From the NCBI GenBank assembly GCA_949130485.1, contig OX422197.1:4284205-4348204 (forward strand): a stretch of 64,000 bases of DNA, written 5' to 3'. This document shows positions 1-35,600 of the stretch, piece after piece. The notes under the pieces are model-generated. The model was not told the DNA's origin. It saw nothing but the letters and a program-made list of their open reading frames with translations, and made no database searches. How positions within the stretch are numbered: the stretch's first letter is position 1; every line of letters begins with the position of its first letter. The translations under genes and the position numbers were made by a program. The DNA is from Agelas oroides. Lineage: Eukaryota; Porifera; Demospongiae; Agelasida; Agelasidae.

Positions 1-1150
1 CCTTGCTGTAGTTATAATTTGAGGGTCGTACGAGACTAGCCGAAACCTCACCATTGGACTCAAAAGCGTAAGTAACACAGGGAATTCATTTTACCTGAAA
101 CTTTGTTGTCTCATCGGGGTAACTGCAGGCACCTCACCTTGTCAGATTTGTAGAACCATGACATTTGTTGGGTGGAATAATGTGTGCTTTCAGTTTGCCC
201 GGAGTATGGCCTATTTTGCTGCAAAGAGATATTTATAACTGAATACAACATGTGTACCATTAGTGAGCAAACTATACAGTAACTTTGCTGTAGTATACCC
301 ATTGGTCCAGAATCTACTTTTCTCATAATATAGACACATCCATGTAAAGTACTTTAATCATATGTGACAATACTGACTTGTGTCCCATAATATGATGCAT
401 AGCTGTCATGTTTACTGTTGATTTGCAAGTTGCAACAAAGCGAAAAGCAGAGGAAGTCCTAATCGGAAAAAGGCAGAAAGTCTATCTTGGTGGGTCTTTC
501 AACCAATTAAGATCCACTTAAAATTAAGGATTTTACAATCACCTATTTTTGGCTTTCGGCTTTTCACTCTACTATCGTATGTTTTACTAGAACGACGGTA
601 TTAGTTAGTGCATGCAGTTGTATGCACACACTCTAGCTACCCCCCTTCCCCTGTAATGTCACAATGATACACTGCCAAGTTTTATATTGCCTATGGTAAT
701 TGTGGCAGAAAGCTTCAGTTATCTACACAGCTTAGTTCATAATGTTGTGGAGCATGGTTGACCATGGTGCCTATACACACTAGTGACAATATATAATTAT
801 TTTGCCAGTACATCTAAATTAGCAAGTAGGAAAAATTTTTGTGGTGCTTTTTTCTTGGGCATAGGTGTGGGAGAGGAAAGGCAAAACTACAAACCTTTTT
901 AGGGTTAACTGCTGCTCGTTCAACTTCAACTGGCACTGAAACTATAAAAATTGACTTGAACTTTGAGAGTACCTATTGGAGGGGATAGTCCACTCTCGCC
1001 CACCCTTGGCTGTGTTATTGTGAAACTCAGTCATAATGAAGGATAGCAGTTACTACAATCTGTTTGCCAGATGGGCTGCAATGTTAAAAGATTTACTGGG
1101 GAAGCCTGTTTACCAGTAGCATGTCAATAATTTTGTCATGTATTGAGTAA
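1..1150. other. 5' flanking region of the laminin gene, no gene seen
   Basis: No coding exon or RNA gene could be recognised. A pyrimidine-rich stretch ending in TGCAG just before 1174 looks like a splice acceptor, so the laminin gene may have an untranslated exon further left. I could not place a promoter. Confidence 0.4.
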
Positions 1151-1184
1151 CATGCTTTTCTTCTATAAATGCAGCAACTTGAGG

Positions 1185-4100
1185 ATGAAGGAGTTGAATA
1201 GGATGAATGCAGTAGCAGTTGTATTGTTTCTTCTCGGCAGCATTTGCATGCCAACCTTGTCTCAAGTTATTAACTGCTATGATGCAAATGGGCAGCCAAC
1301 TCGATGTGAACCTCCAAGACGATCCTTCTCTTTTGGATTTCAACCAAGAACAAATAGCACATGTGGAACTCCACCAAGCAGTTTTTGCTTTAGAACAGTG
1401 AATGGTAGTACCACATCCAGTAATTGCAATGGAGTGTGTAATGCTACTAACCCCAGCCTTGCTCATCCACCCAATTTCATGACAGATTCTAATGAAACAT
1501 GGTGGCAGTCAGAGAATAGTCGTGACCCGGGAACCAGTGTGATGATTGAACTTTCTTTTGGAACTCTGGTTGAAATCAGTGTCATAGCCTTTACATTTAT
1601 GTCACCAACACCTAGTGCATTTTACATTGAAAAGTCCACTGACTATGGCCTCACATACCAGCCATTTCATTATTTTGGTATATCTTGCAATGACAAGTAT
1701 ATGATTGATCCTAACATGATTTTGAGCATTGATAATGAGACAGCCCCCCTTTGTCAACTGATAAGTACACCTCCAGAATCTGGTCGGATTGAATTCTTTC
1801 CAACGAATGGTAGACCTACAGCTAATGACTCTGTTCCAGGTTTCAGTGAGAATCTTTACAACTTCACCACCGCTTCTGACATTCGTATTATTCTCGATGA
1901 CCATTTTATAATTGACAACCTAGATGCAGATGATCCAGGTTACTACTATGCAGTTGAAGACCTGAACGTTACTGGGAGTTGCCAATGCCATGGACATGCC
2001 TCAGCTTGCACTAAAGACCCTAGTACTGGACAATTTCAGTGTTTATGCCAACATAACACATCTGGAACTTTTTGTGAACGGTGTAGAGATTTCTTCAATG
2101 ATATACCCTGGCAGAGAGCTGATGGAAATGAACCTTTTGAGTGCAAAGGTGAGAGCTGTACATATATTCCTCCTTTGTGTAGTTTAACCACCCCTTTTCG
2201 AAACTTCAAAACAGCCCTCCCTTTGTGTGGCAGTCTTAGAATTATTCAGTGTTCATGAATTTTGGGAAGAATTCATTGAGCTCAAAGACATAACATATAT
2301 GTAGTAGCTGGTTGTTGTATACCCCTTTGGGAGCTTTAAATGATAGGAAGCAAAACCAACTGGGAGTAGAGGCGAGAGAGGAGCAGTTGCTTCCATAAAG
2401 TTAAAAGCATGGAGGGATAACCCCCACATTCGTATCTATAGTAGTCTCATGCCCAGACCAAATTTCAAAAGTGCATGCCCTGCGGCCCAGTAATAGAGTC
2501 TAGACAATTCATGAGACCAGTTGACATAACAAAACTCAGTAAATGTGGTTTTCATTGCACATTATAGGTTACTGATACCATAAGCCTTGGCACCCAAAAT
2601 TATGCAAGCTGGCTACTGGGATCATGTTATATTGGTGTACATATGACTCGTAATTCTTGAGTAATCTGATTAGTGTGACAACATGCCGACACTCTTTATA
2701 ATTAGACCTATCAGACCTGGTAGTTACCTATCGGCAAGTTTCCTGTAAACAATAAATTTTGATAAAATTGCAGTGCACTAAGCCAGTAGTTAAGTGAGCA
2801 TTTCACTGTAGTTAGTCTAGCCTCGTACCCAGGGTCCGACCACGCGGCCTGGATACGAGGCTATAGTTAGTCCCACTCTGAAGGCTTAAGTGTTCTTCTC
2901 TGGACAATGAACAAGGTTTTATTGACGGAAAACGTTCAGCCATATGTGTTTTCACAGACTGTCCTGATATGGAAGTTAAAGCTTGCACTGCTGAGGCTAT
3001 GGTTATTAATGTAACTTTTTATTTAATTACACGCCTATATAGGGAGTAGCATTGTATTCACAGCCACTTAATTATCAACCAAACACAGCTGGTCACTTTA
3101 ATGCTTTGCGCTTGGGTGTTACAAAGATTCTGCAAAATCTCATACATTAGTCTAGCTGCACAACCTCACTTTTGCCAGTTAGTCTGGTTACAGCCTCAAA
3201 TCCAGAATGGATAACCTGGATTTGAAGCTAGTCACTGGCTATGTGAGACTAGCTAAACCCAGAACTAATAACCTGGATTTGAAGCTTGGCTACGTGAGAC
3301 TAGCTTGAGCATGGCTTAACCCCACATTCCAACTCTGTCATATAACACATTGACTAAGTTTGGTACCTGTGGACAAAATTGGCTTTATAGCAATAGTTTC
3401 TAGAAAACTATCAAAGTCACTCACAAGGCTAATGTTTATAGCTCTCTAGAACTAGAAGCAGCTCCTGGTTCATTGCAAAGCTGTTGCACGTGCTGTGTCG
3501 GCAAAGAACAAAGCATTCCAGCATAAAATATTTCCAGTGTGAGTCTGTGAGTTCGTGAATCCTAAGTCTGCAGATTACATTAATAGCAATGAAATAGGGT
3601 GAGGAAAATCATCATCTTTGTGGAGCTTGTAGCTGTAGCGAGAAACGCAAGTACCAGCTCAGTACTGCCCTAGCACTACCTGGTTCCATTACCTGGCTAA
3701 TGAGATTACAATCAGAATGGACCCTGATGGTGGCTAGCTGCCAGGAAGCCATTAAATGGTGCATAGTTCAACATGGAACCTAGCTTACGTTTGTCTTACG
3801 TACTTCCCTTGCGATTCTAAGTCATGCTTGGATTCATGCTACACTGATTAATGTTAAAGGTTTCCCTAAAGCACTGACTTTCCTGCACTCTGACTTCTTC
3901 CCTCTGAATGCTATGCGACAAAGAAATCATGCTGACTCATTGCTTGATTTATGTGCTTTAGTGTCTGAAACTAATATCTCCTTCCTGCAGCCTGCAACTG
4001 CAATGGGCATTCCACACAGTGTGCATTTGATGCAGCTACATATGAGGAGACTGGCAGAAGGAGTGGAGGAATATGTGTAAATTGCACTGACAACACAGCG

Positions 4101-7100
4101 GGGAGACAGTGTGAAACATGTGCAGAATTCTTCTACCCTGTACCCCAAAATGGTTCTACCATATGTACAGGTTCGTATAGAGTGCATTATAGTGACAGGT
4201 GTGTACACAAATCATACCATAGCCAACCATAGCAGCGTGTTACACTCGTGCAGGTGCAGTATTGTAACTCAGTTACTATTTCTCGGAGGGCAACATTTTT
4301 GCATTGTCTTACGTAATTATTCGAATATTGCGTTCGAATACTGCGTATGATCCAATTTAACGTAAGAAATTCAATTTCAGGAATTCATCATGAATCTAAT
4401 TCTACTTAAGCCGGAGTCTTAATTTATTTACGCTAATCCAATTTAGCGTAAAGTAATGATTGAAGCTAACCTCCAAACTTTGTGGCCTTCCTACCAGTCT
4501 CACAAACAGGTGTACTGTCTTCATAGTTTGGGAGAGATCTGTGCACAATTCCAGCTATACACTTATCTTAGTGCAACATTCATCGGTCCTGGAGTTCGAC
4601 AAAAGCCAGTTGTACACTTACCTAGGTAGCGAAGGACACTTGATATTGCCTTCATCGGTTTTAGAGTTTGACGAGGTCTATACACAATTCTAGGAAAAAC
4701 CAGCTATACACTTATAAGGCTTGCAAAAGCACGCCTTCACGTTTCCACGTATTGTGATTCTGCACACAATTCTAGGAAAAACACCTAACTTACGAGAGCA
4801 GGCCTTCGCTTTTCACATATTGTGATTCTTATGCAATGTAAGATCTATTTCAGGAATTTATGATGAATCCAATCTAACGTAAGGTCACATCCAAATTATT
4901 AAAGCTTACGTAGAATTTGAACAATTACGGTAGTCAGTAACCATTCTGGGAGCTTGTTGTGATATTTTTGTTAAATAATACGTAGGAAGTGGTCGTGCAA
5001 ACCTTCTAAGATTGAAACGTGTATACAGGTAAAAACAATCCCTACAAACTCTGTATTGTTTGGACACCCAACACCTGTACAGTCCAAGATATAGGTGCAT
5101 CGCCACATGAGTGTCCATATTTCAGGTTCTCATTTGCTAGCTGGTATCATATTTATATATTGTTGTACAGTGCTGTGTGGCTAGACATAAACTTTTAATG
5201 AACCATACTTTTTGACTACTATGGAGCAGTGATCATCAGTGGTATGGTGAGGTGCCGGTCAAGTACAGAGCCATGACAGGAAGTGGGCAATAATTGTGAA
5301 AGGAAGAGACAGACAACAATGAGAAAGCAGAGGAGGTCTACTGATACGGTCATGCATTAATACTAAAAACTGTCAATACAAGAATCGGAAATGCTGTACG
5401 GCCAAGATTATGATCGCTTGGGAAGAGGGGGGGAGGGGCTTCACAATGCTGAAAGCGTCTTGCCAGTCAAAAGTAACATTGCACACCTTTGCGAGCTCCA
5501 GACTGCATTTATGTGGCTGTTGAGAGCCAGATGAACGATGTGATTGATCTCTTTAGCATGGTCGAAAATACCCCTTAGCTAAGTCTGAAGCTTCTAATGC
5601 CCAAAAATCGCTGTTGAAATGATAGAATGCAGCAGATTAGCAATTAACTTGGAAATCAGACACTTGTAGTGCTAGTTTGGACTCCCTGTAACACATTGAC
5701 AATCGTGTTATTAACTATGACACACTAAATTTCATTAGCTCTTACTGTCTTCACACAGGAAGGTGGATGGCACAGACCCTACAACCAGTATGTTAGAAGC
5801 TGCAATGCTTTTTTGGTACAGATAACTTGTTTTGTATATGACGTCAATGGTATCGGACCTCCTCTGAGTAGAAAGTGTCGGTGCAGTAACTTGTATTCCA
5901 TGGCTATATAAACCAGTTGTACTATTCTTCAACTTAACCAGAATTGAATTATGACAAATTGGTGACAAAGATGGAATGATAAGGGACCGACTTCAAGCGG
6001 AGAGTACCATTATTCTTGATGAAGATTGTAAACTCTTCACTAGAAAAACAGGGACCATTATCCATATACAGTTGTCTGTGGTAGGGCAAATAAGGTTCAT
6101 AGTTGTTGGATAGGTGCTCGAGAGAGGTGGCTGCAGGCATCTGGAATACTTCTAACCACTTCAAATATGCATCGACCACCACTAGAAACATATGTGTCCA
6201 CGGATGGGAGGGCCACTTCGATGGTTGGAGAGGAGCTGGAGGAGGTGCTGGCCTGTACTGCTGGCAAGTGTGACATGATTGAACTGTCTTCACTGTGTCT
6301 CCATCCATACCAGGCCACCACACAAATAATCTTGCCAAAGTCTTCATTCGAGAAATGGCAGGATATTTGGCATGCAACTCTCCTAGCACCACCTCTCGGC
6401 CTGGAGGTGGTATGATGATGCGGCTTCCCCAAAGTAGATAGTCATCATGGAAAGAGAGCTCCGTTTTTCGGCACCAATAAGGTTTCAGTTTTGCTTTGTT
6501 CATTAAGGGATAGCTGTGGTTCATTTTGATCTTGCATGCCTGAGTTCCGCCTCATATTTTCAAGATGCATACTTATGCCATAGAAGCCAAACAACAGTAG
6601 AAAAGCCTTACCAACTATGAAATTCCGTTTTCACAGGAGTGATTTGGGAGGAGCTATCATGATTTTTGAAGTGTTTTTGTTCACAAACTGGCTGTAACTG
6701 GACAAAGACTGTGATATTTGGTTTTGCATATGTTACAAGCTATCGCCAAATACAAAGTAAAACTAAATAAAACTTAGGATCAAGGTTATTGAGATTGATG
6801 GATAGTGTCAACAATCATAATAACACCAATCAATCAGGCCAAAAGACCAAGCCAAGGGTATGGGATATTTTCCAGGCTTTTAACTGGAAGTTGTGAGTTT
6901 TGACTAACCAGCTTTGGATTTCCCATTTCATTAGCTTCTTTTTGGAGTGCTAGGTACACATGAATCTATAGAAGTACGTGGTGGTCAAAGTGTGGTATAT
7001 CATTGTACTTAGCTTTTACAGTAGCCACACACTGATGATATAGGTCATGAATGAACTCTTGACAATTTGGCTGATGTTTTGACTGATTTTAGTCATTTTG

Positions 7101-10100
7101 GTGCTGACACTGTGCCTCTTAATGATGATGAGAATGACGGATTAAACCTTCTTAGGAGGCTAGTACATACCCCCCCAACTTCTACACAGCAATATACTAA
7201 GAAGTTGCAGGGAATATATTGCTTAGTCAGGAATTCATGTACTGCCATTTGGTGCCTTTCATCTGTCATCTTTCCGCTTACTGTTACTATTACCCTACTG
7301 AATTCACTTTCATTGTTGATGCAGCATGTGGGTGCAATGCCACTGGGAGTATCAATGCAACCTGTGATCAAACGACTGGTGTCTGCAGTTGCAAACCAAA
7401 TGTAATTGGGGATAAATGTGATATGTGTATGCCAGGTTTCTACCATGTGGATCCCACAAGCCCAGATGGATGTAAGCCATGCAACTGCAACATGGGCGGT
7501 GCACTGAGCCATGAGTGTGATATATTTAGCGGACAGTGTTACTGCAGGGTTGGTGTTACTGGAAGGATATGCTCCCAGACCACTCCTGGATACTTCTTCC
7601 CAGCAATTGACTACATACTGTTAGAAGCCGAAGATGCAGGAGGTATACCAAGTCCCATCATTCTTACAAATGAGGAGAACATAAATTTTACAGGTACTGG
7701 ATATTATAGAGTTATTGACCGAGTCAGCATTGTCAATTTTGGAACAGTGATACCACCTGTAACTGGGACTTATGAAATCACTTTTCGATACAATCTCGAA
7801 GGTACAATGTTTTGGGACACTGCTACCCTTCACGTACTAGTTGGCAGTGAAGAAGGTACTGGGCTGCCTTCTGATTGTGATGAACTACCTGTTGGAACAT
7901 CACAAGTTCATTACAGATCATGGACACTGGGAGTTGGTCTGACAATCTCGCAGAATTTATGTTTGAGAGGTGGTCGGTCATATACTTTCACCCTGCAAGA
8001 CTTCAACTCTGGACAAACTAGAGGAACAGCCACATTGGACATTGATTCCCTTGTCATTGTTCTTACTATGAGCTCAAGCCTTCAAGTGTTTTCTAATACA
8101 ACACTGTCTGCTCAATATTCCACCTGTACTGATGCTTGGAGAAGCCTCATATTGCAATCTATGGCTGATCCCTTATGTGGGCAGATTACCTTTGCAGTTT
8201 CAACTGAGCTCTACAATGGAACACTTAGTAAGCATGAATAAGATCTAGTGTGCTGGTACTTCTTTGCAGAGGAATAAAAATACGAAGCAATAACTAGCTA
8301 ATAGATGACGATAGTACTGTCTTAATTATGGTGTGTGTAATTCTTTATGCAACGTTCTGTAACTTTGACCTTATTAGTGTGTGAGTGTGACTCTACTGGG
8401 TCAGTGTCCAACACTACATGTCAACCTTTTGGAGGGCAGTGCACATGTCTACCTGGAGTTAGAGGCAGACGATGTGATGAGTGCAGCCCTGGTTATCACA
8501 GCTTCTCCACTACTGGATGCATGAGTGAGTGGCACATACTTGGTTCAACAATTCATATTGGGAACATATATTACCTCTAAGTAATATTTAGAACACACGC
8601 TCCAGACATGAATCCACCAGTTGTCGGGCCACTGTGTTGTCAGTAAAGACCTCCCACTGTCAACGTACCTTTCAGTTACCTAACTAGCAATAACATGACA
8701 CACATCTGCCTACTGGAGCCATGTACATAGTCTTGTCTGCTCAAGTTTTTGAAAGATCAGAATGACTCAGCAACAATAAATTCACCATCTGATTGCCTGA
8801 AGGCAAGAAGACAGCACTAGAAAAAATTGAAGGGTTTCATGGAATATAATTAGTACACTCAGATGATACAACAATGTGCAGCTTGTAACCTTGACTGTTA
8901 TTGGATCATCCCCATGCGATAAATTAAGACCCACAAAGCCCTATCTATAGTGTAGGTTGTTGCTCCAATCACTGTTCTCCACCATGACATTGTTGTCAAT
9001 GCTAGTAGAGTTGCTTACTGCTTAGGAAAGCTCCTCGAAGCATCATAAAGGTTCAAAAACATGGCACCAAGTGAAGTACTTCTGTGTTGATGTGGGTATG
9101 TACTTTCTGTACTGTTTTGAGAACTTCTTTGAAGACTCATCATGCATCTTTTAAACACAATAAACACCCACCTTAGTGTTCAACAACATTGACGACTACA
9201 AGCTCTTCTGTGTGGACATGTGTATGTGTGCAAAAGACTCAGTTGGCAATTAACTTTTATGAATACTGTTTCGCCTGTATTTCATGCTTACATTGTAGAA
9301 ATCATGCAAAGTAGTACTCCCAAGTTTGGATTAAGTGATTTAATGCACAGTCACCTGACCAAATTCTAAACACCTGATTGGCTGAAGGTCATGTGATCAG
9401 CACTAATAAAGTTACAAGGGTCAGTGTGAAAGCTGTACAAGTCACATGAAAAATCAATAGTACTACCACAAGTCATGTACACTATAATTATTTGTTAGTG
9501 CAATGAAATTGGAAGTTAATATGATATTTGCTAATAGTATTTTGTAACGTGTCTATCAGGGATACATCACTTTTTTATTTGTAAAGTCCAAGGTGCTTCA
9601 TTAGTGGGTTTTAGTAGCCGTCACTATTGTAACCTTTTTCCTCCCTCATTATTGAGACTCATAGAGTGTCTAGTAGCTCATTAGTCAGTTAACTAAGACA
9701 GGGACATTGGCTACTAATTATGATAGGCACCCACTACTCATGGCTTTGCCGCTTTGCAGTATGTGCAAGAAAAAGATCTAACATACACGTAATACTAATG
9801 TTTTGCCGTAGATCTGGAAATTTTCGTGTTGTAAAATCTTTGTGCATTTATTAAAAATATTTTCGTGGCCTAGTTATACCCACAAAAAAATTTACAGGCA
9901 ACACAGTGATTGTTATGAATGCCTAACAATACAAAGCAAAAATGAACCACATTCTATCAAAAGCCAGTTCAGAGATCACTTCACAGACAACCCAGAATAA
10001 CAAATGAACCCCGAGGAAGTTCAGAAAGTAAGGTTCTGTGCTTCCCGCATGTGAAGGGCCTGAGTGAAAACGAGTTGTTCCTGCTGTCACCTAGTGCAAT

Positions 10101-13100
10101 GAAAGACCACTTGGGAAACTGAAATAAGCCCTGGCCACATGAGAATAAGCAACAACTTGAGTGAACACCTTTGTCAAACTCACTGCTACCTGAGAAATAT
10201 ACAAGCACGCTTATCTCCTGTATTTCCTACATCCTTACAACCTGTATTTTCTCTCTAATATTACCTTATGTGGTGTGTGCTTGTAAACTGTAAGCCTGCT
10301 AGGCAACAATGCTTGAAATTATGAGCAGTTGAATAAACCTATAATTATGCTGTCTGAATGGTATCTACCTCATGCACAATTCTAATTTGATGTCACCTCA
10401 CTTATTGCATTCTCTCCATTGGTTGTTGTTTAGTAGCACGGTGTTTGAATTGATTCAGAATTGGAGTTGATTGACTATACTGTTCTAGTATATAGGAATA
10501 CACTTTTCTTCACTTTCCTTTATGTTTTTATACAGACTGCAACTGCCATGAAAATGGATCCATCAGTGACATTTGCCAGGCAGTGGGGGGTTTCTGCTCC
10601 TGTCGGCCCAATGTGCAAAGTCGAGACTGCTCATCCTGTGCTCCCAACCACTGGGGACTGACCACAGGAGTTGGCTGCTTACAGTGTTCTTGCAATGCCA
10701 CTGGTTGGTGACTGGGTTAACCCAGATAAGCATTCTGGATAAGTCTGTCCTTCATGGGAGACATGGAATGTGGTTCAGTGATTGTTCATGAATAGATAAG
10801 ATTATTTACTGTGGCTATGCTTGTGGTGTGATACTAATGTTCAGTGTTTGCTAATACTTATTGTTTGCCTGTCTTGCTTGGTACTGTAGGCTCAGAGTTT
10901 CTTCAGTGTGATCAAATTACTGGGGCATGTACCTGCAAAGCTGGAGTAGGAGGAGTATCCTGTGACCATTGTCAGGATTTTCACTACAGATTTTCAGACA
11001 ACGGCTGCAGGTCTGTGTAGTAATCAGCTATAGGTACTCTGTTGGAGAAGTTAGTGTGCTGTGTCTGTCCTAAGATTGTATTGGAAAGCAGGCTAGAACA
11101 AAAGAATTGGGGGAATTGTGTATAGTACATGAGCTATAATAGCAGGTATGCACATGTGTATGTACTTTACTGTATACACTTAAATCACAGTGAGATGGTC
11201 AATTTCCATGCCTGTTTACATGAATATTTATTGCCTGTGGTACGTACTGTATAACGTATGTGGCAACTAACGTGACTATATGTATACAGAAGACCATATG
11301 GAACCAAGAGAGTATGAGTTATACCCCTCACTGCATTGTATGTACCTACAACAGGGCTTGTGCTTGCAATCTAGCAGGTGCAATCAATGATGACTGTGAT
11401 CTTGTGTCAGGCCAGTGCACATGCAGAACCAATACACATACGAGGGATTGCTCTCAGTGTGCGGATGGAACCTTCAACCTTCAGCCTTCCAATCCTGATG
11501 GGTGCCAGCCATGCTTCTGTTCTGGACAGAGCAATACTTGCACAGATGCGCAAGGATTTGGTGCTTCATCAATTGTTACTGAATTCAATAGCAGTGAGCC
11601 TGTGCCTCTTCAGGGTTGGAGTGTCGTATCTTCAGGCTCTGCTCCTAATCCTATCCCAGAATCCGTAACTGGTGCAACAGCTTTTAGTGATGGTGGGATC
11701 ACAATTTTTGCAAACACAGATGCATACCTTCAAGCTCCCACAGAATACCTAGGGAACAGGCTTAGCTCATATGGTCAGTTTCTCGACATCATGTTAGCTC
11801 CAGTGGTTTATAGCATACAATTCCAGACTGTACTACAATCTGATGTGATTTTATCTGGCAGAGGCATTCAAATTGGAGTTAACTTTACTGTCATATCTGG
11901 CAGTGGTTCGCAGACTATTAGAGTTCAGCTTCATGAATCTAGTGGGTGGAGAAATACACAAACAAACCAAGCTCTATCGGCCTATGAGATTCAGCTAGTG
12001 CTTTCCTCACTAGACCAGGTGCGTATCACTGCAGGATTCAACACAGATGTAGTTCTTTACAGTATTAGTTTAGACACTACAGTTCCAACTGCAAATGGCA
12101 CCACTGCTTCATCGGTTGAGCAGTGTACATGCCCAACAAATTATACTGGTCTCTCTTGTGAACAATGTGCACCTGGATACACTCGATCTGCTAGTGGAAC
12201 CTGTGAACTATGCCAGTGTAGTGGTCTTTCAACTACCTGTGATTCTGAAACAAGTGCATGCATGAACTGTTCTGGATTTGCAACTGGTGACTCATGTGAG
12301 CGGTGCAGTAATGGGACATATGGTGATCCTACCCGTAACATACCATGCCAACCATGCCCATGCCCATTTACTACTGAAGTAGGACAGTTTACGGATGAAT
12401 GCATCCTACTTCCTACTGGTGAGCCAATGTGCATTGACTGCCCTCAAGGCCATCGTGGTCTTCACTGTGAAACGTGTGCTGAAGGATTTTTTGGAGACCC
12501 ACTAGGTGTTCACAACTTGAATGGAACTCCATCTATGTGCTCAGATTGTCTCTGCAATGGTAACGTTGATCCAACCATTCCAGGAAGTTGTGATAATATC
12601 ACTGGAATATGTCTTATGTGCACTAACAACGCAGCTGGAGACAGGTGTGAGAGATGTGCAGATGGTTTCTATGGGGATGCCATAGTGGCAAAAAACTGCA
12701 CACGTGAGTTATTATAACAAGCATTGTATGGAATTATGTAATGGCACACAGCAAGATTTGCCACTATCCAAACTTGATAATGCACAAGTACATAGCTAAG
12801 TCCTCACCAGAGATAGCTAGGAATCACGTATGCCAACAAATAGCAGCCATTTCTCCAACCAGGGCAGCTACTGTGGCTACACATGCATGGACTAAGCTTG
12901 ACGCTCAAAGCATGAGCTGAGTCTCCAGCATTTATGAGTGCCGTTTGTGCATGGCCCTTACCTGAAGCAACCACAACCACTGTCAATTTTTCCACCGTTA
13001 TGAGCAGCCTGGTATTGAATGTCTCTAGCTGTACAAACCATGAATAAGTTGCCATGCTTGCTTCCAAGAGTTAATGAACTCTTGGTGCTTCAACTTCAGT

Positions 13101-18471: not shown

Positions 18472-18477
18472 TTTATT
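18472..18477 (-). terminator. Polyadenylation signal overlapping the aprataxin stop codon
   Basis: On the minus strand the stop TAA is embedded in AATAAA, so the hexamer and the stop codon overlap. This would give a very short 3' UTR if used. Confidence 0.45.
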
Positions 18478-19090
18478 GCTGGTGCACCTGGATGTGAGCT
18501 TTCAGCTTAGGCATATTAGGGAGTTCAATATGACAAATATGGCACTTTAAAGGCAGTTTCAACATTGCCTCATACTTTTCTTTATCCAAACGTACATTTC
18601 CGGAAGTCTCAAGAATTCTAATTATATCTTCAGCATCCTTAAAGAACCCAGATGTGAAGGAGTTCCAGTGTTTCTTGGTCTTGAGACAGGCTGAGTCAAA
18701 GTCCTGACTTATGACATGCATGTGTAACCTTGCCATACTTGGAACTGCATGATAGCCATGCCGAAATTGGAGAGAAGGCATTTTTGCCTTGAGTTCTTTT
18801 TCCAGCTGCTCTCCATGTCTCAGCATGTGCTTCAAAAGCTCAATGTGTGACCTGTCCAGTGATCTGAGGTTTGCAATATTCTCCTTTGGCAGTACCAAAT
18901 AGTGATGCTTTGCTTTAGGATATGCATCCTTGATAGTGACTGTCCTTTCATCAGACTGCACAACCATCTCAGGGTTCTCCATTGAGGCAAGGAGTTGTGA
19001 GCTCCAGTGAACAGGGCCAGCAGTTGGTTTGCGCTTCGCTGCTGGAGGTGTCACATCAGCCCCATCAGCTTTACTAAAAACACGCTTCAT
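18473..19090 (-). CDS. APTX: Aprataxin-like DNA deadenylase (HIT domain plus C2H2 zinc finger), intronless
   Basis: Predicted to remove AMP from abortive 5'-adenylated DNA ligation intermediates in the nucleus. The 205-residue protein has a basic N-terminus (PPAAKRK), a HIT domain (about 27-140, with VIKDAYPKAKHHYLVLPK-like core VTIKDAYPKAKHHYLVLP), the active-site segment RLHMHVISQDFDS, the aprataxin-typical KKHWNSFTSGFF, and a C-terminal zinc finger CHICHIELPNMPKLKAHIQVH. The FHA domain of vertebrate aprataxin is absent. The whole reading frame is one exon, unlike the intron-rich neighbours, so it may be a retrocopy or an ancestrally compact gene. The HIT triad has Arg at its first position; the two following His are kept. 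Confidence 0.93.
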   Translation of the reverse strand: MKRVFSKADGADVTPPAAKRKPTAGPVHWSSQLLASMENPEMVVQSDERTVTIKDAYPKAKHHYLVLPKENIANLRSLDRSHIELLKHMLRHGEQLEKELKAKMPSLQFRHGYHAVPSMARLHMHVISQDFDSACLKTKKHWNSFTSGFFKDAEDIIRILETSGNVRLDKEKYEAMLKLPLKCHICHIELPNMPKLKAHIQVHQQ

Positions 19091-20244
19091 AGTGTCTTTA
19101 GTGATGACTGTAGAATGATATTTGTTCAGTGATGACAGTTACATTCAAACTGCTGTAGGAGGTATAAAACCAATAGCATGTGAATATTGCTTGCTTTATT
19201 TCACGTTTTCCCCTCTTTATGTCTATTACGTTTACGTCGAGTTTTCTAACTGTTGAGTATTCCAGCTTCATTTGGCCTATGTAAGTTCAACTGCTGATTC
19301 TTGTCAATTAGGGTGCATATGAAATCTAATACTGACACAGCATCTCTTCAGGCGGACTTCACCCCTTTGGTTAATATCTAAAGGCCACTTCCCCCCTGAT
19401 CACATGAGCAAGTATGCGGCTAGCAGTAGGGATGCCTGAAAACAGTTCAGCCCCCCATGAGAGACGGTGGTATTTGGCAACAAGTACAGTAACAGGAATA
19501 GCTACAGGTTGCTGATAATTCACACGAGACGTATGTGTGCACACCATCCTACGCTCTTGCTGCAATTCAATGCTACTATATGCCCCTAACTGTATACCAT
19601 TCCCCTCATTAACTTGCCAATACCAGTATGGTTTGAGCTGCCCCTAGCCTTGTTTCCAGATGTTGACTTGTAGCCATCTATAGCCAGTTAGAATTACTTT
19701 CAACCTCAAGAAAATGGAAGCTATTCTCTGTGTATACAAATGCGAAGATGCTTTCTTACGGTTACCAACTAGTTTCTGTAAGTCAGTAAACTGCGAGTTA
19801 ATTGCTATCAATTGCATGCTTGACCACAAATAAAGTGAGTTGGGTACAGGGTGGGGTAGCTATGCCGTTGTCTTGGTAGTCTCGCCATTGGTAAATTTAT
19901 CAGCCTGAGTAAGCATTGTTTTGTGGTAGCTATTTTTTCAACTTTGTAAATATGCTACTTTCAAATATCTTATCCACGTAAACAAGTACATGAATGTTAC
20001 AATTTTATTTTATAGAATTATCGCAAAAATGGCTTGCATGTGCAAACAGTTGGTACCTGGCCATTTCTCTCCTCCTACACAGCCTGGGAATGAAGCTAGA
20101 GCTGCCCCCAGCATCATACTCTCAAGCCTTACACATGTCTAGATACTACACAGCCATTTTAAATGGCAATAATGGGCACTTTTAATGGAACTCAAGTACA
20201 GTGAGAGTTCCTTAAGCGTCATGTTACTGTGTATTACGTATACG

Positions 20245-26600: not shown

Positions 26601-29600
26601 ACCACAGGGAGGAGTTCTTTTATACTAATGTGCAATGGGGCGGTATGGCTATCCCATTGCATTTGGAACCATTCGTTGGCATGGAAGGCACCACAGCCCC
26701 AACTACCTGATGCATCTGAGATGATTATGTTGTCTGGGGCCTCGGCCTTGAGAGGGGCTAGGATGGACATTCCGTTCCAAGTGGAGACCATTTGGTACCA
26801 CCATTCAAGATCCGCACGGAATTGTTGGTTGATGCGATTGTAGGCATCCATATGTTTATGAACAGTGGAAAGTTTGATCATCCGGCGCACAAAATCCCGG
26901 CCGGGTTTCACTACTTTTGCTGCATGTTGTAGAGAGCCAAGGAGTGAGAATAGCTCCCTTTTCTTACAACTTTTACGACCTCTCCATTCCCTGATTGACT
27001 GATTTAGGCAGCGTCATTTTTCTGCAGGCAAGTGGAGCTGCATTTGAACTGTGTCAACTTCAATACCTAATATAGGGAGGGTGGTCAAAGGGCCTTCACA
27101 CTTTTCAGGTTTGGCAGGTACACCGAGGACAGGGAAGGTTTCAAGTGTTGTGGCCAGGGCGGAGGCACACTCCTGTGTGTTGTGTTTGCCAACGATGATG
27201 AAGGCATCAACATAATGGAATACGTTCTGTACCCTCGTTGATCAATACCAGCAATTGCAGTGAAAATAATGAGAGCTGAACGGAGGCTGAAGGGGAGGAC
27301 CTTGTCAAAATACAGCTCCCCTTGCCACTGCATGGCCAGGAGTAGCCTGTCTTCGGGAGCTCTACTGGGACAATGCGGAATTCTTCTTTGACATCTGCTT
27401 TGGCTAGAAGGGCCCCTTGGCCGAGATGGAGGATGGCCTCTGTTACATGGTCGACAGAGATGTATGAAATTGAGCAGGGCTCTTTGTCAATGAAGTCATT
27501 TATGCTGTATCCTTCAGGGGCAGAAAGGTCAACAATTAGCTGCCATTTTCCTGGTTTGTGACGTTTGGGGATAACACCAAAGGTGTTTGTTGGAACCAGG
27601 GTAGGGTGGATGGGTCCTGAATGCAGGTAAGACGGTTTTTACTGAATTCATTACGAAGATAGGCATCCACTACAGATAGATGCTTTGTAGCCGATCGTAG
27701 GTTCTTTCGGCAGGGCTTCAGGTTTTGAAGGCTGTAGTTGAAGCCTATCCTGAAACCATATTGAATGCCTCGTGTGATGAATTCAGCATATGTTGGATCT
27801 GGGTGACCCTGTAGCTCTGATTGCCATTTGGACAGGTCTAGGGGAGTGGTAATAGCCTGGAGCTCTTGGGGTAGCTGGGGGGTAACAGTGGGGATGCAGG
27901 CCCTTAAACCTTCTAGCCGGCACATGTATGGGTAGGGGTATAGCAGGCTGTCGGGGGTGTAGTGTGACAGGCCTGTAAGTGGCAGATTGTAAATTATTTG
28001 ATCAGGCATAATATAAATGTACACTATTTCCATATTTTTCCCTTTAATAAAGGGAAAAAATAGTGTCCCCCCCACACTAAATCTTCCCTTTATACAAGGG
28101 AAAAAATAGTGTCCCCCCCACACTAAATGATTCGGCACATTTCCCTCACTATTAAGGGAAAAAATAGTGTCCCCCCCACACTAAATTTTCCCATTAATAA
28201 GGGAAAAAATAGTGTCCCCCCCCCACACTAAATTTTCCCTTTAATAAGGGGAAAAATAGTGTCCACTCCACACTAATTTTTCCCTTTAATAAAGGGAAAA
28301 AATAGTGTCCCCCCCACACTAAATCTTCCCTTTATACAAGGGAAAAAATAGTGTCCCCCCCACACTAAATGATTCGGCACATTTCCCTCACTATTAAGGG
28401 AAAAAATAGTGTCCCCCCCACACTAAATTTTCCCATTAATAAGGGAAAAAATAGTGTCCCCCCCCCCCACACTAAATTTTCCCTTTAATAAGGGGAAAAA
28501 TAGTGTCCCCCCCACACTAATTTTGCATAAAACCATTAATTGTTTCCTGTCCCATGAAGTGGTGGCAAAAATTTGACACTTCATATTCTTTCACTTGTGA
28601 GTCACTTGTTGAAGCTAGTAGCTGTTCTCAATGTCAGTGGAAGAAGATGGATGATTCAGATCAAAGTTTGGAAGGTTTTTCTCAGTGCAGCTTCACTGGA
28701 AAAGGTAAGATGTGACATCGAATTCAGGATTAGTTATGCTAGTACCAAGCATTATAATAACTTTTTCACAGCAATCAAACATTGTGGCACCTTTTTTGAC
28801 AGCATGTGAACAGTGCATGAAACCAGCAGATGTATACTGCATGGAGTGCAGAAACAACTACTGCAGAGGCTGTTCTAACATTCGCCATGGCCACAAGAGC
28901 AGAGCGTATCATTCTGTGAGGAGGTTGGAAGATTTTGATACAGAAGATGAGGAGGAGATCACCAGCTCTCAGACAGGTATGAGAGTACATGCAGTGGAAA
29001 AAACGGTAGAAATATGTTTGATGTGTAGAGCTTGAGTATGACCCACATCATTAAAGGAGTTCTCCCACTTTAAAAGCATGGGCATCAGTACTGCTAGTCA
29101 TGTATTTTGAACATAATATTCTCCATAACTTTTCAGAAAAGCAAAACACTGAGCTGGTTGGAGTTTTGGCACGAAATTTCCAGCTACACAGCTTCAAACC
29201 TTGGCAGCTAGAAGCAATCCAATCCATTTTGCAGAAGAAGGATGTCATGGTTGTGCAACCCACTGGCAGTGGGAAAAGCCTGTGCTACCAATTTCCTCCC
29301 CTTGTCACCCACAAAATGACCCTCGTGGTGACCCCAACTATCAGTTTGATGGCTGACCAATCCTTGAGCTTGTCTGCCAAGGGGATCCGCACAACATTCC
29401 TTGGGTCGGCTCAGAAAGACTTCTTGGCTGTAGATCGGGTATATCAAGGAGATTGTGATGTGGTATATGTGACACCTGAGCGTCTCTTCAACACTGGTGG
29501 TGAGCTGCAAAATCCCTTCGCCAAACTTACCAAAGAGAGAAGAATTGGGTTAGTTGCCGTTGATGAAGCACATCTTGTATGGAGCTGGAATTCATTCAGG

Positions 29601-32600
29601 TATGTTTAATTGGCTAAGATCAGAGTTATTCACGATCATGGTCTAGAAAGTTTTGTTGTAATCAAGGTGTTCTGAAATTTCAGGATGCAGTATTTGTACG
29701 TGCAGAAAGTCCATCGGTTCTTCCCAGGGTGCCCAGTCATTGCACTCACAGCAACAGCAACCCCCACAGTTCAAATGAAGATCCTTGAAGATCTCCTGAA
29801 GCCAGATGCTACTACCATTTTAGGCTCCATGGACAGGCCAAACATCTACCTGGAAGTGCGAAACCTCCAAATTTCCAAGAGTACAGGTATGTACGTACAT
29901 ACATATAGATGGTTTACCAATAGGCAGGGTCAACTACTTTTGGAGGGTAATTGATAGATAGTCTTTTTGAGATGGTAGAAGCTTCTTGTATCTCTTACCT
30001 GTCTGGATTGAGCCACGCCCCCGTGAAAACTCATTATGACGTGTGTACATACCTTGTCAGTTAGTTTGGTACTAGAAGCACAAAACATCTATATATTACA
30101 AGCATCCCAATGCAGGTATATCATGGCACAGTCAAGTTGCAACCAAAGTGGCTGAAGCAGTTGAGGGAAAGAAGGCCATTGTGTACATGGACTTTGTCAA
30201 AGATGTTGCCCCTGTAGCAATTGCACTTCAAGAGAAAGGCATCAAAAGTGCAGCATTCCATGGGAAGAAGCTCACAGCTAGTGACAAAAGCAAGCTTGTC
30301 AGTAATTGGAGAAGTGGTGTAATCCATGCCATGGTGTGCACCAAAGCCTTTGGAATGGGGATTGACCAACCAGATGTGGATATGGTGGTGAGGATTGGAT
30401 GCCCTCCATCCCTTGAAGACTGGTCCCAAGAGTTAGGAAGAGCTGGCCGGGATGGGAGACAAGCAACAGGTATTTGCAGCCATCTATACTTGTACCATAC
30501 ATTCAGTTTGTTGGCTTATATCAATGTTAACAATTGAACTAGACATACCATGTGACTATGCCTCTCTTTCTCCAGCAATTGTGTTCTACCAGGAGTCAGA
30601 CATTCAACATGCTACTTACTGGGTGGGAGACTCAAGGTCACGAGCACCAGACATTCTTCAAGCCTTTCAAGTATCTTGGAGGTATGTTACATGCATATAT
30701 TATATACCTTGTAGTCACATTGATGATATGTGGATATGTGTAACCACATATAGGTTTGTGCTAGCCCACATTGCGGGAAAATGTCGTCGCCAAGTACTTC
30801 TGGAGTACTTCAACCAGGATACCAGTGACCTAGTGTGTACAGGACACTGCTGTGATGTATGTGCTGCAACTACAGAAGAAAAAGACATGCGGGAGGAGAT
30901 GCAAGCAGTTGTTCGAGGTGTACAGTCTCTGAGCAACAAAGGTGAAAAGAAGGTGAGCATGTCTGAAATTCTCATTCTCAAAATCAGATACCGTAAGCTC
31001 CCGAAAATACGCCCCCCCCCCCTCAGGAACTTATGCGGGAACCTATGGTATACACAATACACACCCACTTTTGTGCAAGGAGTTAAGGATATTATAACTA
31101 GTATATACCTTCCTACCCAGATTGCAGAGTGGATCAAGGGTTGCTATCGTGCCAACACAGTGTGTTGTGAGACAGACAACACATTTGGTTGTGGCAGGCA
31201 TATGTCCCACTCACTTGAAACATGGCGACTTCTGATTCGTGCTGCATGGCTCCTTGGCTACCTAATGAGGTCAATGTCATTGGGTGGTGGGGAGCAGGTT
31301 GCTGGCTCCATTGTTATCAACACCCTGACAGTGACGGAAAAGGGAGAAGAACTCCTCGAAAACCCACATGCTGTTCGCCTCCCAGCTCTCACACAGTGCA
31401 AAACTTCCCAGACCTCAAAGCCTCTGGAAGATCTCGAGTCTGCTGTCATCAAATCTACAAGGGAAAGCAAAGGTACTCATGCTTTGCCTACGGTCAAAAA
31501 GCTCATGCAGTCAAAGGAAAACTGGTACCCTATCCAGCGTCCTGAAGACTACCACTTTCCTGGTGTCTTTTCACACGATCACCCAAAACGAATGGGATAT
31601 TGTGAAGATATCACTATCCTCCCCAACTACATTGCCACTGATCCCGATTTCATGTATAAGGACATTCAAATTGGAAAAGGAAAGGCCCGAGGAAATCGGA
31701 CAATTGAATTGGATGTAGATGGGGGGAAAGAGAGGGTGACATACAAAATAGTTCCTTGCAATGGAGTTAAGATGTGTCCAGCAGAGGGTTGCGACCATGT
31801 GGTTCCCACATGGGAGATCAAACCCTGTCAACAGCACAAAGGACAGCCACTCGCACGAAGTACAGGCTGTCCTGTAGAATTCATCTACATTCGCCCTGAA
31901 AAGGAAGCAGATAACAGGCGGTGGATAACTGGCATTGATCGTTGTTCTGACATGAAGGGTCAGTATCTCCACAACCACCCCCTCCATGCTGCAGCCAAGA
32001 TCCCCGAGAAGGTGAAGAGTGATATCCAGAAAGCTGTGATCAAGAACCCTAGTCTGAAGACAAAAGACATACTTGAAGGTATGTATGCAAGTAAATTACC
32101 TAAAAGTTGGTGGTATCTTGCAGTAACTATCGAAGACTCAAATTTATGCAGCTAGGCATGCATTCTGTTCACTTTGTTGTTGTTTTGTTTTTATTGGCGT
32201 AGGAAAAGGGATGGATTACATGCCTGGAGCAGCCTCACTAGCTGCCACCCATAAAGGAAAGGTTCAGAACCTTCGCCTTGCTGCTTTGCGAGAAAAAACT
32301 CACGGGCTTCCTGCAGAGGCTTGCATTTTGGGTTTAGAGAAGGCGACAAAGCAACATGATGCAGAGCAAGCGAAAGCAACTGGTGATCGACCACATTTGG
32401 CTGAATATCAAACTCTAGGCCATCCCTACAGGAGAGACTATGCTCTGTCCCCATCTCTAACATGGGTTCTCACAATGAGCCCCTTGCAGTCCCAAGTGTT
32501 CATGGAATCAGAATTTATTGAAGCAGACGTCACCTACAATGCTGCGTCTGTCCTTGAGTACCTGATGAATGTTGTAACATTCAACTACACCACAATGGAA

Positions 32601-35600
32601 TGTGAGCAACTCAACATCAATTGCTTTATCCACCTACGTACATGGCATACTATGTGCATAATTAATATATTTGCTTCTGTCATTTAGGGATGATAGTGGC
32701 ACGAGTGAGAATGAACAAGCTCACAGCTGAGGCATACCGAGAGGCATTCAAAGCAACTTTTTCTGCTGTAAAGAGTGACCACCCAGAGTTTGAAGTTGGG
32801 AAGACCCTGCAGGGCATTTTAACAGACTGGTCAGACACCCAGTTGCGAGGGATTGAAGAAGCCACATCCAAAGAGAAGGCTGCCAAAGTTGTCAAAGGAT
32901 GCCAGGTGAGAATGTTTGTGTAATGAGTTCAGCCAGAAAACCTGTTCACGCATGTACACAATGCCCTTTGTTCAACATACGTACTTACAGTCTGCAGTAT
33001 GTTGTGTAATCTTCTTACTTTGTTTAACACATAGGTCCATTTTCAAAGATCTGTGAAAAGGGTGGCTGATCGGGCCAACAAATCTTCCAAGAATGGTTAC
33101 AAAGCCTTTACCTCAATAGCTTATGCTATTCCAAAGTGCACCAGTGCAGAAGATGTAGCAGCCCTTTTTGGAGTGCTTGGAGGCCAGCTGCCATTGGAAA
33201 AAGCTGTGGAAATTCTGCCTGGTTGTAAGGCTGTCACAAGTTACATCCCAGAGCACAAACCCTCCAACTGGAACAGAGGCTGCAGTACATGACTACTAAT
33301 ATCTTTCTTTTGCTTCAGAGATGCTATGTGCTGCATGTGCTGTGATGACAGTAGAGCAGTTCAACAAGCTGCCAACCTCCACCAACGCAGTTGAAGCTTA
33401 CAACCGACTCTCAAAGGGACCATCTCAAGATTCCTTAGAGATTGCCATGATGGCAACTTACAAGACGGACATGGCCGCAGCACTTAGGCACATTGCTCAC
33501 ACCAAGGGTATTACAGTGTCATACGAGAGCCTCTCGCCAACATCTCGCAAGAAGAGGACACAAACAGCCAACAAGGCACGGGCGAAGCGAAGAGCTCGTG
33601 AAGAGGACGACGGTGAAGGTCCCCCAGATAAGAGGCGACATTTGGAAGGTACATTTTTTAAAGGCAAAACATACTACAACAAGAGGTACACAAGTGAGTA
33701 GAGTAAATTGAACACTCATCACTGTAAAGTTCATCCAAAACATTGACTTACATATTTCACATGCATCCATAAACAGGTGCCAAGGTGGAAAAGCAGGGCA
33801 GTCATAAGATCCGGTCAGATTCTGAAACCCAGCTGAGTAGAAAGGTATGTCGATTAACATTGATAACCACTGCATGTTATCACAGGAAACCTGGGGTGTT
33901 GCTACAAACACATGCATGTTTTCTTGAACAAGACAGCTAGCTTGGCCTTATCCCTCCTCAGGGATTGAAAGAACAAGGGGACAACAAGGAGAATGCTATC
34001 GACACAGAAAAGTATGACCGTCCATCCAAGAAAGGAGAGCTAATGTGGGTTAGAAGACTTTGTCTAACTGAAGACGACAGGAATAGACTTGCATCAGGCA
34101 AGTGGCTGAATGGCTCACTGATCAATGCTGCTCAGAACCTCCTGAGAGAGAAGTTTGCGAATGAGAAGGGGTTACAAGACACAATTTCAAAAGAAACATC
34201 ATGGAAGCCGGTGCACGGGGAGTTTGTGCAGATCCTTCATGTTGGAAAGAGCCATTGGCTGACAGTCAGTAACAAACACTGTCCTTCCAGCACAGTTCGT
34301 GTTTATGACAGCATAAAGGGGGCCATTCCAGCTGACGTCAAGATCCAAGTAGCTGCCATTATGCGCTGCCAGGAAGCTGAGCTTGTGTTCGAAGTGATGG
34401 ACGTTGATCTTCAGATTAATGGTGACGATTGTGGTCTTCATGCATTAGCAACTGCGTATGAACTTTGTGCTGGCAATGACCCCACTAGTATCACATGGCA
34501 GCACAATCGGCTCCGGTCACACCTTCAAGCATGTCTGGAGAAGCAAGTGATGAAGCCATTTCCCAAGAAATCTCAGAGGCCAAGTGGCATAGTTAGGGCT
34601 TCATTTCGTATCACTGTCTTCTGTGTCTGCCGAATGCCAGAAGAACGATCAGCAAAGATGGCTCAGTGCCTAGAATGTAGAGAATGGTTCCACCAGTCGT
34701 GTGTGAATATCCCCAAAGCAGTTTTTTCAAGAAAGAGAGAGCCATGGAGCTGTAAAAACTGTAAACATTAGACTGTATAGCACACAAACATCTAGTGAAC
34801 TTGCTTGCATGTACCATTAAAATCAATATTTCATATGAATTTTGTATTAGGCTAACAAACAAGGAGACGGAATAGAGATGCAAGAATTGGTGATAGAAAT
34901 GCATTGAATCTTTTAGTGTGGGGGGGGGGACACTATTTTTTTCAAGGGAAAATTTAGTGTGGGGTGGACACTATTTTTTCCCTTAATAGTGAGGGAAATG
35001 TGCCGAATCATTTAGTGTGGGGGGGGACACTATTTTTCCCTTGTATAAAGGGAAAATTTAGTGTGGAGTGGACACTATTTTTCCCCTTATTAAAGGGAAA
35101 ATTTAGTGTGGGGGGGGACACTATTTTTTCCCTTATTAATGGGAAAATTTAGTGTGGGGGGGACACTATTTTTTCCCTTAATAGTGAGGGAAATGTGCCG
35201 AATCATTTAGTGTGGGGGGGACACTATTTTTTCCCTTGTATAAAGGGAAAATTTAGTGTGGGGGGGACACTATTTTTTCCCTTTATTAAAGGGAAAAATA
35301 TGGAAATAGTGTAAACTTCTACAGAACCATTTGATCATTGAGAATTACGGATTGAATGAGTGACTGATAAGTAATACAGATCATGGCCATCAGGGTGTGA
35401 TATTAGTACCGTAAGTATGCTGAAATGTGGGTATAATATGTGAACCCAATGTTAAGGCTGAGACTTATGATAACTGTTCGTGGGAGGTGTGGAGGTGTTT
35501 ACTATGAGATGGGGTGGTTGGAGCCCTTTGATTTGTTGGAGATGAGGATGCCATTGGGCATTGTGCCAGAGGGTGAGGCCCCCCACATTCAAGACACTGG

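Follow-up and report, generated by a model that had tools for sequence, protein, structure and literature searches.

Can a DNA transposon carry a RecQ helicase in the same polypeptide as its transposase and, if so, to which transposon lineage does it belong? The question is raised by a locus of the sponge Agelas oroides, at positions 28005-35328 of a 64,000-nucleotide stretch of contig OX422197.1 (assembly GCA_949130485.1), hereafter called the window. The answer presented here is that the locus is, with high probability, a damaged cut-and-paste DNA transposon encoding one multidomain transposase, in which a core made of RecQ, a zinc finger and a DDE domain (named after its catalytic residues D, D and E) is conserved, while a tail made of a Ulp1-like protease and a PHD finger is exchangeable. 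The uninterrupted relatives, the ends and copies of the element, the damage in the window copy and the rival classifications are considered in turn.

Helicase and transposase in one frame

That RecQ and DDE form one protein is best seen in relatives with uninterrupted frames. The genome searched was the assembly that holds the window (259 Mb, 141 contigs; C-numbers designate contigs and L-numbers fetched loci). On C1, locus L044 (L044:287-4819) is one frame that runs for 1,511 codons between stops, with Pfam matches above cut-off for ubiquitin (31.4 bits, cut-off 25.4), DEAD (89 bits) and Helicase_C (56 bits), and under cut-off for the B-box (22.7, cut-off 24.1) and the RecQ zinc domain (19.4). 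These are followed by two catalytic D in a D-70-D spacing, the motifs CxxH and WxxWW, the catalytic E at 147 and a beta-rich tail similar to that of database protein P0020; no Ulp1 or PHD match was found in L044 by Pfam scan. The protein is 37% identical to that of the window over 1,197 residues and 59% identical to database protein P0001. On C14, L045 (L045:100-4047) has a 1,316-codon frame that ends soon after E and is 99.9% identical to L044 over 1,291 residues, a degree of likeness between contigs that suggests recent movement.

Relatives were also sought three times in a set of 5.8 billion proteins (one search scored the 7,996 candidates sharing most words), yielding 24 database proteins. 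P0001 is collinear with the window protein (39% identity over 1,032 amino acids), and RecQ and the DDE region share one open reading frame (ORF) in P0001, P0013, P0014, P0017, P0021 and P0024, with P0001 and P0024 stopping before E. Part of RecQ is present in P0002, P0016 and P0019, and RecQ motifs occur in 8/8 full proteins. Pairwise distances computed for RecQ and for the zinc finger–DDE region agree (Mantel r 0.904, p 0.0002, for eight proteins of which two are ~80% alike). Searched against this genome, a 245-residue DDE piece of P0013 was matched 74 times, often by fragments of exons; the best match along the full piece is 54% identical, so this assembly is not the source of P0013. Searches of viral contigs (with P0001 and alignment A1) and of genome contigs (with A1) matched some stretches, among which no relative was confirmed. 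The original prediction had placed RecQ and DDE in one protein, and this is borne out by L044 and by six database proteins: undamaged relatives exist, the predicted fusion is genuine, and RecQ–zinc finger–DDE is, judged from these alignments, a core unit conserved across families of this genome and database records.

A diverged second family (fam2) is found on C2 as an element of 8,223 bp (L014:1616-9838, reverse strand). In a tblastn search with the window protein, the B-box, RecQ, zinc finger, DDE and Ulp1–PHD parts appear in order at 38-64% identity per stretch, and the two proteins are 51% identical over the aligned part (615/1,204). With a script guided by the window protein, 11 of the 13 exon junctions sought in fam2 were placed, while of the other two one could not be located and the last remains uncertain; ten of the 11 placed share alignment column and phase with window introns 2 to 11. 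Such guidance biases the junctions toward agreement; all placed sites are nevertheless GT-AG. On C12, a shorter element (L013, ~1922-4061) has a fam2-type left end and a fam2-like Ulp1–PHD piece; a clear target duplication was looked for in this short element and none was seen.

Ends, target duplications and mobility

The whole element (28005-35328, plus strand, 7,324 bp) shares its ends with copies on contigs C22 and C8. The interval first proposed, with its 9-bp duplication, is exact: ATTTGATCA stands at 27996-28004 and, identical and directly outside the element, at 35329-35337. The left end (28005-28524, plus) is made of a 16-nt tip, GGCATAATATAAATGT, followed by ACACTATTTCC and about ten 46-bp units with two palindromes per unit, and the right end (34911-35328, minus) is an inverted array of the same kind with the tip GGTTCTGTAGAAGTTT read from the right. 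The terminal inverted arms (244 nt, 93% complementary) are built of these tandem units and lie inside the outer 16 nt, which mostly differ between the two ends and are largely not inverted copies. The left-end consensus GGCATAATATAAAT(G/T)T-ACACTATTTCC and the right end GGTTCTGTAGAAGTTT-ACACTATTTCC, read inwards, also occur in copies elsewhere, as found by a fuzzy search for terminal motifs in fetched loci.

The C22 copy has the same terminal bases as the window element and its own 9-bp target duplication, GTCTTACTG; the C8 copy is flanked by AGACTGCT, which is 8 bp long, or 9 bp if a terminal G is counted on both sides. The fam2 element, with ends GGGTTCAAATAGATCT-ACACTGTTTGG and GGTTTGGTAGAAGATG-ACACTATTT, has the 9-bp duplication CTCTCTCAC, which is consistent but a weaker proof because fam2 sits in a host tandem repeat. 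Target duplications are thus of 9 bp in three of the four elements with both ends seen (window, C22 and C2), and of 8 or 9 bp on C8. That identical ends occur at several sites, each time with another duplication, shows past mobility, and the multi-copy insertions that the original prediction proposed to look for do exist, each with its own duplication. The locus had also been called composite; a composite of two insertion sequences is rejected, there being one pair of ends and one target duplication.

Folded as single-stranded DNA, the left array of the window element (28021-28524) and the array of fam2 reach z-scores of -14.8 and -11.4, with 0/100 shuffles as stable in either case, values that are inflated by the repeats of the arrays. 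Compared by eye between the two families, the stem at the G-run is altered on both sides (TAGTGT/ACACTA to CTGTGT/ACACAG), a two-sided change that fits a kept palindrome. The palindrome of the 46-bp unit may serve as a putative dimer binding site or a putative helicase hairpin.

Gene model and damage of the window copy

The predicted fused gene (28647-34771, plus strand, as are all its exons) has 14 GT-AG exons in phase, with 1,544 codons and a stop counted from the ATG at 28647; the 14 in-phase exons agree with the original prediction, and its length of 1,529 residues does not. Exons 1-2 (28647-28704, 28803-28976) encode the N-terminus with a B-box-type zinc domain at residues 19-59, and exons 3-6 (29137-29599, 29684-29886, 30116-30469, 30576-30681) the RecQ helicase core with motifs 0, I, II, III and VI. 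Exons 7-8 (30754-30952, 31121-32078) encode the RecQ zinc-binding module, the RQC winged helix and a C/H-rich zinc finger ending in HNH, which we take to resemble WRKY-GCM1/FLYWCH. The first and second catalytic D (residues 947 and 1018) lie in exons 9-10 (32203-32601, 32688-32905), where the C of CxxH stands at the end of exon 10, and the remainder of this motif lies in exon 11 as modelled (33035-33284). An apparent intron 11 of 34 nt (33285-33318) precedes exons 12-13 (33319-33693, 33777-33844), with the catalytic E (residue 1153) and a basic linker, and exon 14 (33962-34771) encodes the Ulp1/SENP-like cysteine protease and the PHD finger, up to the stop at 34769-34771.

Matches of the window protein pass the Pfam cut-off for DEAD (82 bits), Helicase_C (61 bits) and PHD (31 bits), and fall just under it for RecQ_Zn_bind (24.6, cut-off 25), RQC (22.4, cut-off 23) and the B-box (20.7, cut-off 24.1); RQC passes in relatives P0016 and P0017. 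Among solved structures, the helicase part matches RECQ1, bacterial RecQ, WRN, BLM and RECQ5 (best 212 bits, residues 86-500). The Ulp1 part, whose catalytic residues are presumptively assigned, reaches 14.7 bits for Peptidase_C48 (cut-off 20.7), with a weak match to SENP1 (21 bits). Ulp1–PHD is held by nine of the 15 same-genome sequences scanned, and six of these nine pass the Peptidase_C48 cut-off (L024, L025, L026, L033, L037 and L041). Of the domains first proposed, the helicase and PHD parts stand in the window itself and the Ulp1-like protease is supported by its same-genome counterparts, while RecQ_Zn_bind, RQC, B-box and Peptidase_C48 remain under cut-off in the window.

Alignment with the C22 and C8 copies shows that 91 to 93 bp are missing from the window at 33271/33272, a deletion that cuts the 3' end of exon 11. 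The C22, C8 and C117 copies retain the end of this exon, a GTAAGT donor and an intron of ~90 nt, and fam2 retains the corresponding exon end. As a true splice unit, the 34-nt intron is rejected, since three other copies keep the longer exon and intron there; it is what remains of a longer intron after loss of its donor from the window copy. The deleted stretch encodes WxxWW, a motif kept in 15/15 of the proteins covering it in A4, a 17-protein alignment that is the basis for DDE conservation and the structure model. The D-70-D spacing is identical in all ten proteins compared, and the distance to E is 146 to 148 in the nine others (fam2, P0002, P0013, P0014, P0017, P0020, P0021, L044 and L045). 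Thus, the short intron and the D-134-E spacing of the window are scars, because of the ~91-bp deletion and the longer form in relatives. In the signature D-70-D-134-E given originally, the first spacing holds and the second is a product of damage; likewise, the single frame of this copy crosses the deletion scar. The window copy was once mobile, has since been damaged, and its transposase gene is not intact.

The DDE domain and points against the reading

In A4, the two D, as well as the C and the H of CxxH, are the same in 17/17 proteins, and E is present in 14/15 proteins covering that place, the exception being P0022, near its end. In the structure model of the DDE part, a helical insertion is predicted and CxxH lies between the second D and E; the predicted fold is nearest to hAT (Hermes), IS256 (ISCth4, which we take to be IS256 kin) and the P element, all three within one Z unit. 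IS256 and Phantom are kin of Mutator/MULE, and a bracovirus protein is presumably a Phantom. No rve match up to E 10 was obtained for the window DDE part, and a PHROGs scan of this part found nothing. Conservation and predicted fold point to an RNase-H-like domain of hAT/Mutator/P type. To this extent the MULE-like DDE of the original prediction is retained; the match to a MULE profile is not.

Several points weigh against reading the locus as a transposon with one fused helicase–transposase of this type. The fusion gene is predicted from genomic DNA, and the eleventh junction placed in fam2 is an extra intron inside window exon 9, which the window lacks. No copy of the window family is intact among those examined: codon 722 is a stop in the C22 copy, the C8 copy has lost a large internal stretch, and C117 was seen in part; fam2 also has one stop. 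Over exons 1-10, window and C22 differ at 10/691 synonymous and 11/2,441 non-synonymous sites, and the resulting pN/pS ratio of 0.31, based on just 21 changes, is consistent with constraint. A Pfam scan of the window DDE part found nothing up to E 10 (its core alone gave one unrelated weak match); the MULE profile PF10551 matches neither the window nor L044 and reaches 13.5 bits in P0021 (E 0.1, cut-off 27.6); Foldseek comparison of the DDE model with the PDB gave nothing at E 0.001; and hhalign of A4 with two MULE-matching ORFs and one Ginger-like integrase ORF of the same genome (single-sequence profiles) was uninformative.

Exchangeable head and tail modules

The conserved core is framed by variable modules. 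At the N-terminus, P0013 has a ubiquitin domain (residues 36-96, 55.9 bits) with LLGG just before the B-box, the ubiquitin-like domain of L044 ends in VGGG, and weak ubiquitin matches at the same place in P0014 and P0021 (15.9 and 14.2 bits) end in LLGG and VMGG. A Gly-Gly-ending ubiquitin-like head, as in P0013, P0014 and P0021, is likewise found in ubiquitin fusion proteins. At the C-terminus, P0002, P0010, P0011, P0020, P0021, P0023 and L044 share, by eye, a similar tail. As modelled in P0020, this tail is similar to the Tudor domain of SGF29 (Foldseek probability 0.94-1.0 across 48-60 columns, though with E of only 0.18-0.30); the Tudor-like tail is not recognised by Pfam. Ulp1 or PHD was found in 0/14 database relatives scanned with Pfam, which are unspliced ORFs, so that a separate later Ulp1–PHD exon could be missed.

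The Ulp1–PHD module was matched at least 147 times in this genome. Sixteen such loci outside the family were fetched with ~8 kb upstream, and 15 are without RecQ or DDE of this family. In L035, a RecQ fragment lies on the opposite strand (L035:139-1059, minus), ~4.5 kb from a transposase/MULE ORF with Ulp1–PHD; the fragment is diverged, ~29% identical to P0017 and P0021. Among ORFs beside Ulp1–PHD, the MULE match of L035 is of 25.5 bits (cut-off 27.6) in one scan and 29.5, above cut-off, in another, and that of L029 is of 16.1 bits; L030 has an rve match of 32.0 (cut-off 32.6), and SH3_Tf2-1 appears under cut-off in L030, L037 and L039. In the tree computed for 21 modules, fam2 does not stand with the window family; fam2 and the C12 fragment group with L031, L032, L039 and L040 (99/97), L035, which is MULE-linked, has the SH3-linked L037 as its sister (99/94), and at least two changes are forced. 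From these placements and forced changes, the module, which also sits beside MULE- and Ginger-like ORFs, has probably been exchanged between transposon types.

In fam2 (L014), a direct repeat of ~440 bp, at element positions ~5876-6330 and 7199-7662, flanks the Ulp1–PHD exons; it is perhaps a trace of the gain of this module.

Relation to known transposons

Transposons with RecQ are already known in print: a RecQ helicase has been published for Academ (PMC3627910), target duplications of 9 or 10 bp are given for AcademH (PMC10045372), and in fungal KolobokH RecQ lies downstream of the transposase, Kolobok duplications being TTAA (PMC9587614). The original statement that the element matches none of those known was thus overstated. 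A C-terminal Ulp1, in one family with PHD, is described for Ginger1, and Ulp1 for some Mutator elements (PMC2836005); Ulp1 or PHD in some Mutator/MULE elements recurs in a second source (PMC6446971), where Mutator duplications are of 8-11 bp, directly outside the inverted ends. Neither 'helicase' nor 'RecQ' is mentioned in the main text of either of two MULE surveys (PMC6446971, PMC13359780), and no description of a RecQ–Mutator fusion with Ulp1 and PHD appears among the matches listed in the openly licensed literature. The ubiquitin-like, Tudor-like and Ulp1–PHD variants and the exchange of modules exceed what the available portions of published accounts of helicase transposons describe.

Two neighbouring genes, or a host helicase caught by chance in the window copy, would account for the introns that lie between the parts in the window family; this explanation is very improbable and, in its two-gene form, is rejected because single-frame relatives exist. 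Both parts share an uninterrupted frame in relatives from this genome as well as in six database proteins, fam2 keeps the introns, and RecQ and DDE distances agree. KolobokH is also a DDE transposon with RecQ, and Kolobok is listed with C/DxxH; however, RecQ is downstream and duplications are TTAA there, whereas RecQ is upstream and the 9-bp duplications vary here (ATTTGATCA, GTCTTACTG, CTCTCTCAC), and Kolobok is excluded because target duplications and domain order differ. Ginger1 has the same kind of C-terminal Ulp1 (with PHD in one family) but a Gypsy-type integrase core, without counterpart here in the form of rve; it is rejected by core type, and in this genome Ginger1 has only the Ulp1–PHD module in common with the window family.

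The two remaining placements each account for part of the features found: helicase with DDE and 9-bp duplications for AcademH, and duplications within 8-11 bp, long inverted ends and C/DxxH for Mutator. The element could belong to AcademH, an Academ lineage that is already named and has a RecQ-type helicase, and be a form of it with additional domains, a serious possibility that falls somewhat short of probable. RecQ with DDE and the duplications of 9 bp in 3/4 elements agree with it, a RecQ-type helicase with DDE and duplications of 9-10 bp being those reported for AcademH (Kojima 2020, as rendered in citing papers; PMC3627910, PMC10045372). Against it, CxxH is present in 17/17 proteins here, while Academ, among the 17 superfamilies surveyed (PMC10294476), is not listed with C/DxxH in the text available, an indirect comparison, made by description; in addition, the B-box, ubiquitin-like, Tudor-like and Ulp1–PHD parts go unmentioned for AcademH in these sources. 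A separate lineage without name inside Mutator (MULE), having captured a RecQ helicase, is a possibility on which the case for and against is nearly in balance. Mutator/MULE, with Rehavkus, is described in the portions consulted as having the long inverted ends, the 8-11-bp duplications, C/DxxH and a zinc finger in common with the element, which differs by RecQ in the same protein and lacks a significant PF10551 match. Moreover, no Mutator profile is above cut-off, Hermes, ISCth4 and the P element come out within one Z unit of each other, and hhalign with a MULE ORF of the same genome was uninformative. A wider proposal is put forward tentatively, as rather less than probable: a separate DDE lineage outside Academ and Kolobok would carry B-box, RecQ, zinc finger and a DDE of Mutator type on a single chain, its heads and tails (Gly-Gly ubiquitin-like, Ulp1–PHD, SGF29-like Tudor) would be ubiquitin/SUMO and chromatin parts traded between unrelated transposon types in one genome, and the helicase would resolve the hairpin arrays of its own element.

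Other features of the window

Outside the element, at 1131-12717, several ORFs belong to a laminin-type gene (Laminin_N, EGF_laminin, Laminin_B and laminin IV type B), which by itself makes an animal host probable. An ORF on the minus strand at 18473-19138 has a DcpS_C/HIT domain and a C2HE zinc finger, and is presumably aprataxin-like.

Proposed mechanism and significance

With B-box, RecQ helicase, zinc finger, DDE and Ulp1–PHD tail following each other in the chain, the protein would work like that of a helicase-assisted cut-and-paste transposon. The zinc finger and DDE parts would bind the palindromic repeat arrays at both ends. DDE would then cut the ends and join them to the target with a 9-bp stagger; the duplication is observed, and the conserved D, D and E suggest the chemistry. 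The fused RecQ motor might open the hairpin-prone ends or process gapped DNA after excision or insertion, and Ulp1 and PHD may act on host SUMO/ubiquitin and chromatin.

The way in which cut-and-paste transposons handle hairpin-prone ends and leftover gaps is usually ascribed to helicases and repair enzymes of the host. With a RecQ motor built into the transposase chain, conserved in distant families and present in near-identical uninterrupted copies within one genome, these elements would offer a direct system to test how ends and gaps are handled. Likewise, ubiquitin-like, SUMO-protease and histone-reader modules that appear to be swapped among unrelated transposons would bear on how such elements face host silencing.

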